DNA from: Pacificibacter maritimus
GTDB lineage: Bacteria > Pseudomonadota > Alphaproteobacteria > Rhodobacterales > Rhodobacteraceae
Reading direction: 5' to 3'
Assembly: GCF_003814915.1 (NCBI RefSeq)
Contig: NZ_RKQK01000001.1
Coordinates: 1,070,031 to 1,134,030, forward strand
Length of the DNA stretch: 64,000 nt
Made by a program: the position numbers and the translations under genes. Positions 52,943-57,561 of this stretch are shown one piece after another (the first letter of the stretch is position 1; each line of letters starts with the position of its first letter). The notes under the pieces were generated by a model that was given only the letters and a program-made list of their open reading frames with translations, was not told where the DNA came from and did no database searches.

Positions 52943-53295
52943 GGGTCGATTGCCTCCAAGCTGCCAACAACACTGACAGGGTTTTCGAGTTCGGATAGGA
53001 TATCTTCTTCGATTGGAAAGTTCACTTGCTCAACAGTACCGAATTGTTCAGGCATCAGCGGCAAAAGCCCCAAACGATCAAAATTCAATTCCGCCAAATC
53101 GCGCAAACGACTGGGGCGGTTCAAATAGGCCCATTCAGCGCGCAACACGGCCAGCTCTTCGCCTTGATGGCCGATTTCACGCTGGACTTGGCTGACATTG
53201 CGCAACACCTCTTGGGTGGCGTAATTTTCTTTATAGGCCCAGACTGCGAGCCCCATGACAAACAGTGCGGATAGAACAATATAAACAGAACGCAT
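52939..53295 (-). CDS. ftsL: Cell division protein FtsL
   Basis: A short bitopic protein of the FtsQLB complex. The 118 residues comprise an N-terminal membrane helix (SVYIVLSALFVMGLAVWAYK), then a coiled coil (TQEVLRNVSQVQREIGHQGEELAVLRAEWAYL in the sequence at about 27-58) and a C-terminal region with LAELNFDRLGLLP. Assignment is based mostly on position between rsmH and ftsI, as FtsL is poorly conserved. Its ATG overlaps the rsmH stop by one base. Confidence 0.88.
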   Translation of the reverse strand: MRSVYIVLSALFVMGLAVWAYKENYATQEVLRNVSQVQREIGHQGEELAVLRAEWAYLNRPSRLRDLAELNFDRLGLLPLMPEQFGTVEQVNFPIEEDILSELENPVSVVGSLEAIDP

Positions 53296-54302
53296 TAGCG
53301 AGCACCTCGTGACAAAACAGGTTTCGGCAAACCAAGACCTTCACGTTCAACATGAACGAAAGGGGCAGACGTCCGTTGAGCAACGCGCAAACGTGCAGAG
53401 CGTGCGCGTGGGTTATGTTCAAGCTCGTCCTCATCAGGACCAATGGCTTTTGACAGTTTTTCAAAAGCAGGGGTTTTCTCAGCCATCACCGGCGCATAGC
53501 GCGATCCACCGCCCCCTGTTGATGACCGTTCTTGCAAAAAGCGCTTCACCACGCGGTCTTCCAAGGAATGGAATGTAACAACAGCCAGCTTTCCGCCAGG
53601 CTTTAGCGCACGTTCTGCCGCTTCAAGCCCTTCGATCAGCTGACCGAATTCGTCGTTGATCGCGATACGGATCGCTTGGAAGGTGCGGGTCGCAGGGTGA
53701 CTTTGTCCTGGCTTTTTGCGTGGCAAAATACGTTCGATCAGACCTGCCAATTGCAATGTCGTCGTAAAAGGCTCTTTTTGCGCACGGTCCATCACGATGG
53801 CTTTGGCGATCTTGCGCGACTGTTTTTCTTCGCCGTAGTGAAACAAAACTGATGCGATTTCTTCTTCATCGGCGGAATTGACAAAATCAGCAGCAGATTG
53901 GCCATCTTGCGACATGCGCATGTCGAGAGGACCATCTTTCATAAACGAAAAACCGCGTTCAGCCAGATCAAGCTGCATGGAAGACACGCCCAAATCCAAG
54001 ACAACCCCGTCCAGATCCTGCGCGTATTCGTCCATTTTCCCAAAGGTGCCCAAGACCAATTTGATCTTGCCGTTGTAGTCGTCAATCCAGTGAGACGCCA
54101 AATCATGCGCCAAAGGATCACGGTCTACACCATAGACGAGCTCTGCGCCCTCTTCGATCAGCCCTTTGGTGTAACCGCCTGCCCCGAAAGTGCCGTCCAA
54201 CCAACGGCCAGACACAGGCGCGCAGTGACGCAACAAAGGGCGCAATAACACAGGGACATGTGGAGCATCAGGGTTTTCTGTTTCAATAGGATCAGTCATC
54301 AC
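53295..54302 (-). CDS. rsmH: 16S rRNA (cytosine(1402)-N(4))-methyltransferase RsmH
   Basis: Methylates N4 of C1402 in the ribosomal P site. The 335-residue SAM-dependent enzyme has [34 protein letters not shown] (SAM motif I), [22 protein letters not shown] and [16 protein letters not shown], all family hallmarks. Start ATG 54302 lies six bases after the mraZ stop. Also known as mraW. A few residues of an acidic N-terminal extension precede the domain. Confidence 0.97.
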
Positions 54303-54308
54303 TATCCC

Positions 54309-54803
54309 CTATGCATCGTTCAAAAGGCTCAGCGGGTCGAAATCTTCGCCCTGCTCAGCAATCAAAGCAGAAGCGACAGAGGCGTTCTTGGCCTCAAACA
54401 CTTCAGGCTTCCAAATTTCAAACGTCTCGCCCATGCCACCAAAATAAGCCATACCTTCGAGGCCAATTTTATCGCGCAAGGCTTGCGGCAAAACCAAACG
54501 CCCATCAGCATCTACTTCTGTCGGGCGGGCTTTGTTTAAGATCAGGCTTTGCATGATTTTGCGCTTGTCAGACCCGCGCGGCAGGCTGGCAATCTCAGCG
54601 GCCAAAGCGCGGTAGTCATTATATGTATAGACCTGAAGCTGTTTTTGCGCGTCATGCCCGTAGACGATGACCATACGCGGGCGTCCAGTTTCAGCGGCTT
54701 GAGGATCACCCTCTTCAAGTTCACGACGAAAATCGGCAGGGATCGATACACGTCCCTTTCCGTCCACCTTAAAGGTGTGTTCGCCAATGAACATGCCGGC
54801 CAA
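54309..54803 (-). CDS. mraZ: Transcriptional regulator MraZ (TTG start proposed)
   Basis: MraZ is a ring-forming SpoVT/AbrB-like DNA-binding protein that represses its own dcw operon in other bacteria. The duplicated domain is seen as KVDGKGRVSIPADFRRELE and VDADGRLVLPQALRDKIGLEG. I place the start at TTG 54803, not ATG 54794 or the open frame to 54830: AAGGAG is seven bases upstream of TTG, and the resulting MAGMFIGEHTFKVDGKG aligns in length with the family's usual MARxFRGEHxxKVDGKG. ATG 54794 would be 16 bases from that site and shorten the N terminus by three. First gene of the dcw cluster. Confidence 0.9.
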   Translation of the reverse strand: MAGMFIGEHTFKVDGKGRVSIPADFRRELEEGDPQAAETGRPRMVIVYGHDAQKQLQVYTYNDYRALAAEIASLPRGSDKRKIMQSLILNKARPTEVDADGRLVLPQALRDKIGLEGMAYFGGMGETFEIWKPEVFEAKNASVASALIAEQGEDFDPLSLLNDA

Positions 54804-54810
54804 AGCGGCG

Positions 54811-54816
54811 CTCCTT
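54811..54816 (-). promoter_or_regulatory. Ribosome binding site deciding the mraZ start
   Basis: AAGGAG on the minus strand, seven bases before TTG 54803. It is too far (16 bases) from the next ATG at 54794. Confidence 0.65.
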
Positions 54817-54877
54817 ATTCTTGTGCCCAACTGATTTGGGCGGGTTCAACTGCGCCCCTTACCTGCGGGACATTTAC

Positions 54878-54919
54878 GGAAAACGGCGAATTGAGCTGCT
54901 GCCACTGCTCAATTCGCCG
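54878..54919 (-). terminator. Terminator hairpin inside the dcw leader
   Basis: Perfect 13-bp stem CGGCGAATTGAGC/GCTCAATTCGCCG with loop AGTGGCAGCA, then TTTTCC. The short T run suggests partial termination, letting some transcripts reach mraZ. Confidence 0.85.
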
Positions 54920-55055
54920 CTCTATCCCGTTACCGGGGACCCCATGTTTGGGGCTATGTCCAGCTGCGCGCGCCATCTGGGGGGATGTCTGCTCGCTCGC
55001 GCGCCGGATCTCTTGATCTTGATGAAAGCGGGCGCCTGTATGAAGCCTGACTTAA
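54878..55055 (-). ncRNA. upsM: UpsM-like sRNA in the mraZ 5' leader (5' end approximate)
   Basis: The leader of mraZ is GC-rich and strongly structured in a region without a gene: CCCC/GGGG arms with a six-base loop, TCCC/GGGA arms, and a final 13-bp hairpin ending in TTTT. In Rhodobacter sphaeroides the dcw cluster has an unusually long leader from which the abundant sRNA UpsM is made by termination and RNase E processing. The distance from this terminator to the mraZ start (75 bases) is close to that case. A CATAAT at 55061-55066 is a weak -10 candidate, so the 5' end shown is a guess. Confidence 0.6.
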
Positions 55056-55451
55056 TTTTTATTATGTTCGCGGTTCTTGATGTGCCGCTCATTTCCCGTC
55101 TCATCCGATGACTTATTCATGCCACGGGAATTCATGGTAATCAATGGTTTTATTTGGGCAAAGCTGTTTCAAAATTGTGACGCGACAACGCAAACAGGCG
55201 GACAAAAACAGAACATCACATTTTTGTTACTACAAATTGATGCAGCACGAAAAATTAACACCACATATAGACCGGTGCGAATGGTGATTTTTTCTGAAAA
55301 AACTGCGCAGAATCGATTTCTACTGCTTAAAATCCGAACATAGACCCAAAATTGAAGCAAAAACCATGGCAGTACCATCATTTCCCAGCCGACATAGCGC
55401 TGAATTTCTCAATTTCCATAAAATCCCATCACGGGCCTTCACAGACCTCAC
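55056..55451. other. AT-rich region upstream of the dcw leader
   Basis: About 400 bases with no gene supported, richer in A and T than the flanks; likely holds the dcw promoter(s). Frames in it lack ribosome sites and domains. Confidence 0.4.
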
Positions 55452-55482
55452 AAAAAACGCGCGAAACTGATGTTCCGCGCGT
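55452..55482 (-). terminator. Terminator after apbC
   Basis: Stem ACGCGCG/CGCGCGT with a 12-base loop, followed by TTTTTT on the minus strand. Confidence 0.75.
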
Positions 55483-55513
55483 GAAAATTGCCAGCGTCCC
55501 TACAGGGCGAAAC

Positions 55514-56602: not shown

Positions 56603-56897
56603 ATTGGTGTCCCTTTTTGCGCAGTTACGGCTGAAATACGGGCAATTGCCGCGCGATACCACCATATCCACCCAAAATTCGCAAAGAAGTTTTCAAAGCG
56701 CTTAGAATTTAGCCCGACTGCACGAAAATAGGTCAGCAATTGGTATGCATTTTCTGCATGGCGGCAATGATCATTGTATGGATTGTGCAAACGCAGCAAT
56801 GCTCTAAATTCAGTATCAAGCAAGGCAACGAAGACATACGGTCTTCCAGCCACAGACGCACCACGGGCCGAAGCCCACACAGTTAAGGTTTAAGATT

Positions 56898-57113
56898 ATG
56901 GCATATGTAAACACAGCAGCACCAGCCAGCCTTGGTTTCGCAGCACGTTTGACTGCAGTTAAAGCATCTTTGGCACAGCGCATCGCCGACTACCGCGTTT
57001 ACCGCGAAACTATGGTTGAGCTTGAAGCCCTGTCAGATCGCGATTTGAACGACCTAGGTATCGGTCGCTCAGGCATCCGTAGCATCGCTCTTGAAGCAGC
57101 ATACGGCAAATAA
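56898..57113 (+). CDS. DUF1127 small protein, probable CcaF1-type companion of the hairpin RNAs
   Basis: A 71-residue protein, MAYVNTAAPASLGFAARL at the start and the DUF1127 core ETMVELEALSDRDLNDLGIGR at 39-59, rich in arginine and predicted to bind RNA. In R. sphaeroides a DUF1127 gene (RSP_6037) is cotranscribed with the CcsR1-4 sRNAs, and its product is implicated in their processing. Here the first hairpin starts ten bases after the stop, the same arrangement. AAGG is ten bases upstream of the start. Stress control is likely in relatives (RpoH-type sigma factors) but no promoter was firmly identified. Confidence 0.85.
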   Translation: MAYVNTAAPASLGFAARLTAVKASLAQRIADYRVYRETMVELEALSDRDLNDLGIGRSGIRSIALEAAYGK

Positions 57114-57122
57114 GTTTCTAAT

Positions 57123-57154
57123 ATCAGGCCCCTCCTCCTCCCTTGGGTCTTGAT
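57123..57154 (+). ncRNA. CcsR-like hairpin 1
   Basis: Arms ATCAGG+CCC and GGG+CTTGAT (one bulged T) around CTCCTCCTCCCTT. Confidence 0.75.
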
Positions 57155-57160
57155 GAAGAC

Positions 57161-57190
57161 GGCGGCGTTTTCCTCCTCCCTAACGCCGCC
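57161..57190 (+). ncRNA. CcsR-like hairpin 2
   Basis: Perfect 9-bp stem GGCGGCGTT/AACGCCGCC around TTCCTCCTCCCT. Confidence 0.85.
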
Positions 57191-57207
57191 GAAAAATAGG
57201 AATTCAC

Positions 57208-57231
57208 GGCTTCCTCCTCCTCCCTGAAGCC
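57208..57231 (+). ncRNA. CcsR-like hairpin 3
   Basis: Perfect 6-bp stem GGCTTC/GAAGCC around CTCCTCCTCCCT; the shortest stem of the array. Confidence 0.75.
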
Positions 57232-57242
57232 CTGAAGACCAC

Positions 57243-57274
57243 GCGGTGAAGCTTCCTCCTCCCTGCTTCACCGC
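57243..57274 (+). ncRNA. CcsR-like hairpin 4
   Basis: Perfect 10-bp stem GCGGTGAAGC/GCTTCACCGC around TTCCTCCTCCCT. Confidence 0.85.
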
Positions 57275-57275
57275 A

Positions 57276-57299
57276 AAAATTCGGGCTAAACGCCCACAC
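57276..57299 (+). repeat. 24-base spacer repeat, copy 1
   Basis: Identical 24-base sequence, starting AAAATTCGGGCTAAACG, also at 57379-57402. It contains its own small GGGC/GCCC hairpin and separates hairpins 4 and 5. Confidence 0.9.
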
Positions 57300-57304
57300 G
57301 GTCT

Positions 57305-57336
57305 TGGATCTCTCCTCCTCCTCCCTGAGGGATCTA
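57305..57336 (+). ncRNA. CcsR-like hairpin 5
   Basis: Core stem GATCTC/GGGATC with a T-G pair, extended by two more pairs, around TCCTCCTCCTCCCTGA. Confidence 0.75.
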
Positions 57337-57343
57337 AAGCAAG

Positions 57344-57376
57344 GCGGTGATGTCTCCTCCTCCCTGACATCACCGC
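57344..57376 (+). ncRNA. CcsR-like hairpin 6
   Basis: Perfect 11-bp stem GCGGTGATGTC/GACATCACCGC around TCCTCCTCCCT; similar to hairpin 4 but with compensatory changes. Confidence 0.85.
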
Positions 57377-57378
57377 AC

Positions 57379-57402
57379 AAAATTCGGGCTAAACGCCCAC
57401 AC
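57379..57402 (+). repeat. 24-base spacer repeat, copy 2
   Basis: Second exact copy, 103 bases after the first, between hairpins 6 and 7. Confidence 0.9.
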
Positions 57403-57409
57403 CTTCTTC

Positions 57410-57436
57410 GGTCTCTCTCCTCCTCCCTGAGGGACC
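57410..57436 (+). ncRNA. CcsR-like hairpin 7
   Basis: Stem GGTCTC/GGGACC (one wobble) around TCTCCTCCTCCCTGA; counterpart of hairpin 5. Confidence 0.75.
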
Positions 57437-57444
57437 CTAGGCCA

Positions 57445-57480
57445 AGTGTTCGCATCTCCTCCTCCCTTGATGTGGACACT
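57445..57480 (+). ncRNA. CcsR-like hairpin 8
   Basis: 12-bp stem AGTGTTCGCATC/GATGTGGACACT with two wobble pairs around TCCTCCTCCCTT. Confidence 0.85.
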
Positions 57481-57491
57481 GTGAAAAATAT

Positions 57492-57517
57492 CGGACCCGA
57501 TCCTCCCTCGTGGTTCG
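57492..57517 (+). ncRNA. CcsR-like hairpin 9 (variant loop)
   Basis: Stem CGGACCCGA/TCG-T-GGTTCG with a bulged T and a shortened loop TCCTCCC. Confidence 0.65.
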
Positions 57518-57526
57518 ACATATCAG

Positions 57527-57557
57527 CACCCACGCCTCTCCTCCCTTGGCGTGGGTG
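57527..57557 (+). ncRNA. CcsR-like hairpin 10, also the terminator stem
   Basis: Perfect 10-bp stem CACCCACGCC/GGCGTGGGTG around TCTCCTCCCTT, followed by TTTT. Confidence 0.8.
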
Positions 57558-57561
57558 TTTT
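57527..57561 (+). terminator. Terminator of the DUF1127-hairpin operon
   Basis: Hairpin 10 followed by TTTTC. Confidence 0.8.

Follow-up and report, generated by a model that had tools for sequence, protein, structure and literature searches.

Tandem CcsR-like two-hairpin units behind a DUF1127 gene in Pacificibacter maritimus, and a conserved control region upstream of such arrays in the Rhodobacteraceae

The cuckoo RNA family and the CIN1 locus were reportedly described by Reinkensmeier and Giegerich in 2015. In the passages available on Rhodobacter sphaeroides, RS0680a (now CcsR1) has two stem-loops with an anti-Shine-Dalgarno (anti-SD) motif in each (PMC3927594), and the RNAs CcsR1-4 are cut by RNase E from one ccaF1 transcript, with CcaF1 involved (PMC8625941, PMC7866481, PMC10253847), and are removed by PNPase (PMC8625941, PMC7866481, PMC10253847, PMC8307010). 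According to further excerpts, RNase E, that of R. sphaeroides included, favours A/U-rich single strands (PMC6238624), ccaF1 depends on RpoHI/RpoHII (PMC10253847), and TTG, A at -12 and, for RpoHI, T at -9 matter in R. sphaeroides RpoH promoters (PMC3441632). As far as the excerpts go, the published accounts of CcaF1 disagree, since one has it promote CcsR maturation (PMC10253847), while in the other it binds RNA and raised amounts interfere with that maturation (PMC8307010).

The window analyzed here, a 64 kb stretch of the Pacificibacter maritimus genome, carries a locus of the CIN1/cuckoo/CcsR type on its plus strand. A gene for a 71-aa, CcaF1-like DUF1127 protein (56898..57113; PF06568 E 3.1e-9) lies directly upstream of an array of ten stem-loops (57122-57559) on the same strand, and the first hairpin begins 9 nt past its stop. 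The protein shares 49% identity, over 70 residues, with the 71-aa protein that precedes the array of another locus (L045). The upstream neighbor is a divergent Mrp/NUBPL-type ATPase gene (PF10609), and the downstream neighbor is a convergent UvrD-type helicase gene on the opposite strand. The window also contains mraW and mraZ, the start of the division cluster, on its minus strand (53295-55513); in the R. sphaeroides passages available, the sRNA UpsM derives from the 5' UTR of the mraZ/mraW division cluster (PMC8625941, PMC7866481).

Each of the ten stem-loops has a predicted fold when the center of the loop motif is forced to be unpaired (hairpins 1-5 at 57122-57155, 57160-57191, 57203-57236, 57243-57274 and 57301-57340; hairpins 6-10 at 57344-57376, 57410-57436, 57443-57483, 57488-57521 and 57525-57559), with folding energies of -9.9 to -22.4 kcal/mol. 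An unconstrained fold of the whole stretch recovers nine of the ten, hairpin 1 pairing otherwise. Loops 1-8 contain exact CCTCCTCCC, loop 9 reads TCCTCCC and loop 10 reads TCTCCTCCCTT, the last two loops being shortened. TCCTCCC occurs 11 times in the 64 kb window, with ten copies within 57136-57545 on one strand; the mean in shuffled windows is 4.4, and none of 100 shuffles reaches 11. The stems have diverged in sequence, each keeping its own pairing: with arms delimited from the predicted folds, the two arms of a hairpin have a mean pairing energy of -16.5 kcal/mol, compared to -5.0 kcal/mol for swapped arms, and none of 100000 permutations was as good as the observed mean. A sequence-only reading of this DNA had described ten consecutive stem-loops behind a DUF1127 gene, eight with an exact loop and two with variants, whose stems vary yet keep their pairing. 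The domain match and gene order, the folds, the motif count and the arm-swap test, together with compensatory changes in the second-hairpin stem (see below), bear this description out. Two open frames with repeated Arg/Gly/Glu runs run antisense to the array on the minus strand (124 aa at 56999-57373 and 109 aa at 57204-57533) and are probably by-products of the repeated loop.

The unit of the array is a hairpin pair, the first weak and the second strong, and five such units are present (unit 1, 57122..57191; unit 2, 57203..57274; unit 3, 57301..57376; unit 4, 57410..57483; unit 5, with shortened loops, 57488..57559). In addition to the folds, a covariance model trained on 45 units taken from other loci, with no window sequence, gives exactly five matches in the window, which tile the array at 65.8, 64.3, 54.0, 45.3 and 29.6 bits, while the best score outside the array is 9.6 bits. 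The Rfam CcsR1 model (RF02791) likewise consists of two hairpins with one loop motif in each. A covariance search with a CcsR model had been suggested as a check on the array: scores far above background were obtained with the relatives' model, whereas the five tandem RF02791 matches that tile the array (44.6 bits for unit 1, then 36.5, 31.3, 20.7 and 19.3 bits) all lie below the gathering score of 65.3 bits. The best match to ar14 (RF02344), 53.4 bits, also lies below its gathering score of 58.8 bits. The locus is therefore labeled CcsR-like and is not a formal member of RF02791 or RF02344; its assignment to the CcsR/cuckoo kind, as originally proposed, is supported by the DUF1127 gene, the loops, the paired but variable stems and the two-hairpin unit.

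The pairing of hairpins was followed up in a wider set of 61 distinct arrays, obtained from 57 of 70 scanned sources (39 + 30 loci and the window). Either DUF1127 similarity or the RF02791 score served to pick the loci, which include close kin (three Nioella, four Roseobacter), so that they are not a random sample. Among the 30 arrays with an even hairpin number of at least four, paired in strict order with no spacing filter, the median motif spacing was 39 nt within pairs (quartiles 38-41, n=125) and 66 nt between pairs (quartiles 54-74.5, n=95). Between-pair spacing exceeded within-pair spacing in all 30, and the second hairpin was the stronger in 116 of 125 pairs. Earlier statistics had been taken under a 33-46 nt pairing rule (182 units, spacing 39.3 +/- 2.4 nt, second hairpin stronger in 168). 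Of the 45 arrays with four or more hairpins, 15 were given an odd number by the automatic call, and three loci (L002, L004, L013) fit poorly, the pairing rule leaving most of their hairpins single. Nine of ten base pairs of the second-hairpin stem show compensatory changes (45 sequences) in an alignment (A1) that supports the second hairpin only, MAFFT having misaligned the first-hairpin stems; for the first hairpin, pairing was assessed from counts anchored on the loop, a method biased towards pairing by construction. Across units, the loop is much more constant than the stems. Pacificibacter marinus (L001) has the same array plus one unit, six in total. The five window units find their best counterparts there in units 1 (82%), 2 (90%), 4 or 3 (90 and 88%), 5 (73%) and 6 (80%), units 3 and 4 of P. 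marinus both matching window unit 3 (88 and 90%), which indicates that whole pairs are gained or lost. The earlier suggestion of a much larger reservoir, ten against the four of R. sphaeroides, compared hairpins with two-hairpin RNAs and thus mixed units; the comparison is really five units against four (eight loops). The counting of the array is thereby corrected to pairs, and its anatomy becomes that of a pair unit, candidate A/U-rich cut sites and a candidate terminator.

For the family, an array of this size is ordinary, and the P. maritimus locus adds one more instance. A CcsR1-like (RF02791) match at E <= 0.01 was found in 126 of 149 Rhodobacteraceae genomes, one per genus, and eight of the 149 passed the gathering score; among 14 control genomes, one had a match and none scored above the gathering score. 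Matches per genome ranged from 0 to 10 between genera, with at least five in 27 of 149, counts that are too low given that P. maritimus registers three of its five units in them. Six of the 45 arrays with four or more hairpins have ten, and 11 have more than ten; array size as a surprise was rejected, ten hairpins being within the range of these arrays. In two loci (L023, 5.2 kb; L065, 3.1 kb), three separate anti-SD arrays were called in each, and a crude finder placed a DUF1127-like ORF upstream of each of the three arrays of L023.

The linkers between units also follow a pattern. In P. maritimus, unit 1 is followed by an A/U-rich linker (57192..57202), a candidate RNase E site by composition, units 2 and 3 by an A/U-rich stretch and then a GGGC/GCCC mini-hairpin (57275..57300 and, likewise, 57377..57409), and unit 4 by AAAA (57484..57487, from the array call). 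In the 109 linkers that are 20 nt or longer, A+T makes up 60% of nucleotides 4-9 counted from the strong hairpin but 28% of nucleotides 10-20, within which the start of a small GC-rich hairpin is often seen; the Wilcoxon p value for this difference is too small, because an array contributes several linkers that are not independent of each other. The A/U-rich nucleotides 4-9 would suit RNase E. At the end of the array, the second hairpin of unit 5 (57525-57559) and a T run ending at 57561 form a candidate terminator, which a simple terminator scan did not report, the loop being longer than the scan allows. A TTTT tail follows 23 of 45 last hairpins versus 9 of 177 other second hairpins. The two linker mini-hairpins (57282-57296 and 57385-57399) are terminator-like on the minus strand, and the region contains three terminator-like sites, compared to 1.4 +/- 1.1 in shuffles. 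Antisense termination by the mini-hairpins was rejected as a general feature, the linkers of relatives being T-rich as well as A-rich. The terminator-like last hairpin and the minus-strand mini-hairpins would also be expected if the stretch were a string of attenuators or a set of DNA-level repeats rather than a CcsR-like array. That reading is very improbable, given that T tails cluster at last hairpins, that the loop motif is confined to one strand, and that the UvrD-type helicase gene lies on the opposite strand, so that there is no downstream gene to be read through the array.

We consider it likely that the locus is a CIN1-type operon, in which a stress promoter yields one transcript encoding a CcaF1-like DUF1127 protein and five two-hairpin CcsR-type RNAs that act on mRNAs through their anti-SD loops. 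By analogy with the work on R. sphaeroides, a stress-controlled promoter would produce a single transcript with the DUF1127 ORF and the five RNA units, and RNase E, modulated by the DUF1127 protein, would most likely cleave it at the A/U-rich linkers. Cleavage would free RNAs that each display two CCUCCUCCC loops, and these loops could pair with the G-rich SD sites (GGGAGGA type) of many mRNAs, resulting in reduced translation or stability. The last strong hairpin would also terminate transcription. Two further roles are conjectural: the stronger second hairpin of a unit may shield the new 3' end, and the copy number of units may set the dose.

The CCUCCUCCC loop resembles the 16S tail, and it would therefore be expected to pair with SD sites of mRNAs and compete with the 30S subunit. 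The titration of "30S-like targets" that had been entertained for these loops is accordingly not favored. A search for the 16S tail pattern found no match in the P. maritimus genome assembly. In the P. maritimus genome, the loop complement GGGAGGA precedes an ATG by 4-10 nt in 59 places, one of them the antisense strand of the array itself, versus 4 places for the reversed pattern; GGGAGGA is a strong SD anyway, so that this excess does not speak for regulation by the array. A plain anti-SD block would hit many mRNAs and thus leaves target specificity unexplained. Across the 149 family genomes, the number of RF02791 matches was not correlated with the share of GGGAGGA (Spearman -0.008, p 0.92), and no claim is made that array size shapes SD usage. 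Median GGGAGGA/AGGAGGA ratios were 1.37 in genomes with an RF02791 match and 1.24 in those without (Mann-Whitney p 0.034, uncorrected for phylogeny). Counts of TCCTCCTCCC in the 149 genomes were left out, the reversed control pattern being equally frequent in many of them. P. maritimus has the highest GGGAGGA:AGGAGGA ratio before ATG of the 149 genomes (3.47, 59 to 17), despite a G+C content of only 53% in the window.

The proposed dose role is the one part of the operon model with which a neutral view of copy number conflicts. If units simply come and go by unequal crossing-over, and one or two of them suffice, then arrays one unit apart in the two Pacificibacter species, match numbers between 0 and 10 in different genera, and the lack of a link between match count and SD usage would all be expected. 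Diverged stems that keep their own pairing, and an exact loop in eight of ten hairpins, instead suggest that copies are selected one by one; the last unit is nevertheless without exact loops. Neutral copy number is thus a serious possibility, but on balance we regard it as somewhat doubtful.

The conserved control region upstream is less expected than the array and is the part worth following. A conserved block, first seen in an alignment of 15 upstream regions, is represented in the window by TTGTGCAAACGCAGCA (56783..56798, plus strand), whose TTG is a candidate RpoH-type -35, followed by CTAAATT (56804..56810), a candidate -10 region. With the TTG taken as positions -36 to -34, the window carries A at -12 and T at -9, in the published RpoH register as judged from sequence. 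TTGTGCANNNGCAG occurs within 650 nt upstream of 46 of the 61 arrays and in none of the 61 downstream or on the reverse strand; these zero counts serve as the controls, since its constancy in the 46 aligned rows results from selection. With the TTG in the same position, A at -12 is present in 33, T at -9 in 37 and A at +1 in 36 of the 46 loci, while CCCATNTT proper is found in 15 and CATNTT in 26.

A second conserved feature, the box TGCATRGCNGCAWTG, begins 27-28 bp before this element in the 46 loci, with 0 mismatches in 31, 1 in 12, 2 in 2 and 3 in 1. The window copy, TGCATGGCGGCAATG (56755..56769, plus strand), resembles the reverse complement of the VtlR-binding motif (PMC12595884), with 2 of 15 positions mismatched. 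VtlR is a LysR-type activator whose targets in Brucella are three DUF1127 genes and AbcR2 (PMC12595884), and according to the passages available VtlR of Agrobacterium is a direct activator of abcR1, vrsA and atu1667, a small-protein gene (PMC7486931). Compared to the reverse complement of the printed motif over its 15 positions, the boxes have 1 mismatch in 13 loci, 2 in 24, 3 in 8 and 5 in 1, so that 45 of 46 lie within 1-3 mismatches. Since TGCATRGCNGCAWTG was derived from 15 of these upstream regions, the exact-match count leans towards agreement, which the comparison to the printed motif does not. The window box is the only exact match in the P. maritimus genome to this pattern, itself drawn from these loci; allowing at most two mismatches, the pattern is not rare, with 141 matches versus 25 for a reversed control, and what speaks for VtlR is therefore that the box keeps its position in different genera, close kin among them, rather than that it is scarce. 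Of 49 DUF1127-preceded arrays, 38 have a box with three mismatches or fewer; that count depends on a crude ORF start finder, which the mismatch counts for the 46 loci do not. Among the three other DUF1127 genes of P. maritimus, two are preceded by only weak sites resembling the box, with 3 and 4 mismatches, and the third by none. An Rfam scan of these three loci and of four of the eight listed one-mismatch box sites in the genome (L081, L082, L085, L086) gave no hit.

Taken together, it is possible, and we suggest it tentatively, that Rhodobacteraceae arrays are doubly controlled, by an RpoH stress promoter and by a LysR activator of the VtlR/LsrB kind acting on the box that starts 27-28 bp before the -35, arrays without a DUF1127 gene included. 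If so, a circuit that in Rhizobiales controls DUF1127 proteins and AbcR/VrsA RNAs would here drive anti-SD arrays. In the portions of the literature available, the gene order in Agrobacterium is trxB-vtlR, whereas P. maritimus trxB is without a LysR-type neighbor in the stretches read: the one trxB that scored above the cut-off has no LysR-type frame within about 1.5 kb either side, and its neighbors, by reading of their translations, are Lrp-like and Hsp20-like genes. A one-mismatch box near trxB lies inside the Hsp20-like frame and was taken as chance. No published link between RpoH/CcsR and VtlR/LsrB was found in the passages covered, which is weak evidence of absence given that the main cuckoo, CcsR and CcaF1 papers lie outside the literature covered.

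The association with DUF1127 genes allows a different function for the loops, namely that they mainly bind and buffer the DUF1127 protein of their own transcript, or another RNA-binding protein, with mRNA pairing secondary. A DUF1127-like ORF lies upstream of 49 of the 61 arrays, according to a crude finder and with a bias, many loci having been fetched for that gene; in an available excerpt CcaF1 binds RNA and in excess interferes with CcsR maturation (PMC8307010); and the loop varies far less than the stems do. A protein site, however, does not require the complement of an SD sequence, and in four loci (L054, L059, L066, L067) 62-77 nt separate the conserved element from the array, too little to hold a DUF1127 gene, so that the element would drive the RNAs alone there. 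We therefore consider a main role in protein binding unlikely and prefer the operon model with anti-SD action on mRNAs.

Among the known systems, the P. maritimus locus is close to R. sphaeroides CcsR1-4/ccaF1 (RSP_6037), in which a 71-aa DUF1127 gene likewise directly precedes two-hairpin units that carry CCUCCUCCC loops and end in a terminator; the published RpoHI/RpoHII promoter of ccaF1 has a possible counterpart in the RpoH-like element of the window. In contrast to CcsR1-4, the window has five units, not four, and its stems have diverged. As judged from citing passages (PMC10253847, PMC10746234, PMC3927594), the locus also resembles the CIN1 locus and cuckoo family in combining a short DUF1127 protein with CcsR-like RNAs whose loop is fixed and whose stems vary, with no defining difference found. 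It shares tandem hairpins with an identical loop with ar14/NfeR1/SmelA075 of the Rhizobiales (RF02344), which differ, in the passages available, in having three hairpins and an RpoD-type promoter signature (PMC10746234). Finally, a 15-bp box before DUF1127-type genes and sRNAs recalls the VtlR regulon of Brucella and Agrobacterium (AbcR, VrsA; PMC12595884, PMC7486931), a likeness judged on the Brucella motif in the excerpts available. If the box is what it resembles, it would join the RpoH/CcsR circuit of Rhodobacter and the VtlR/LsrB circuit of the Rhizobiales.
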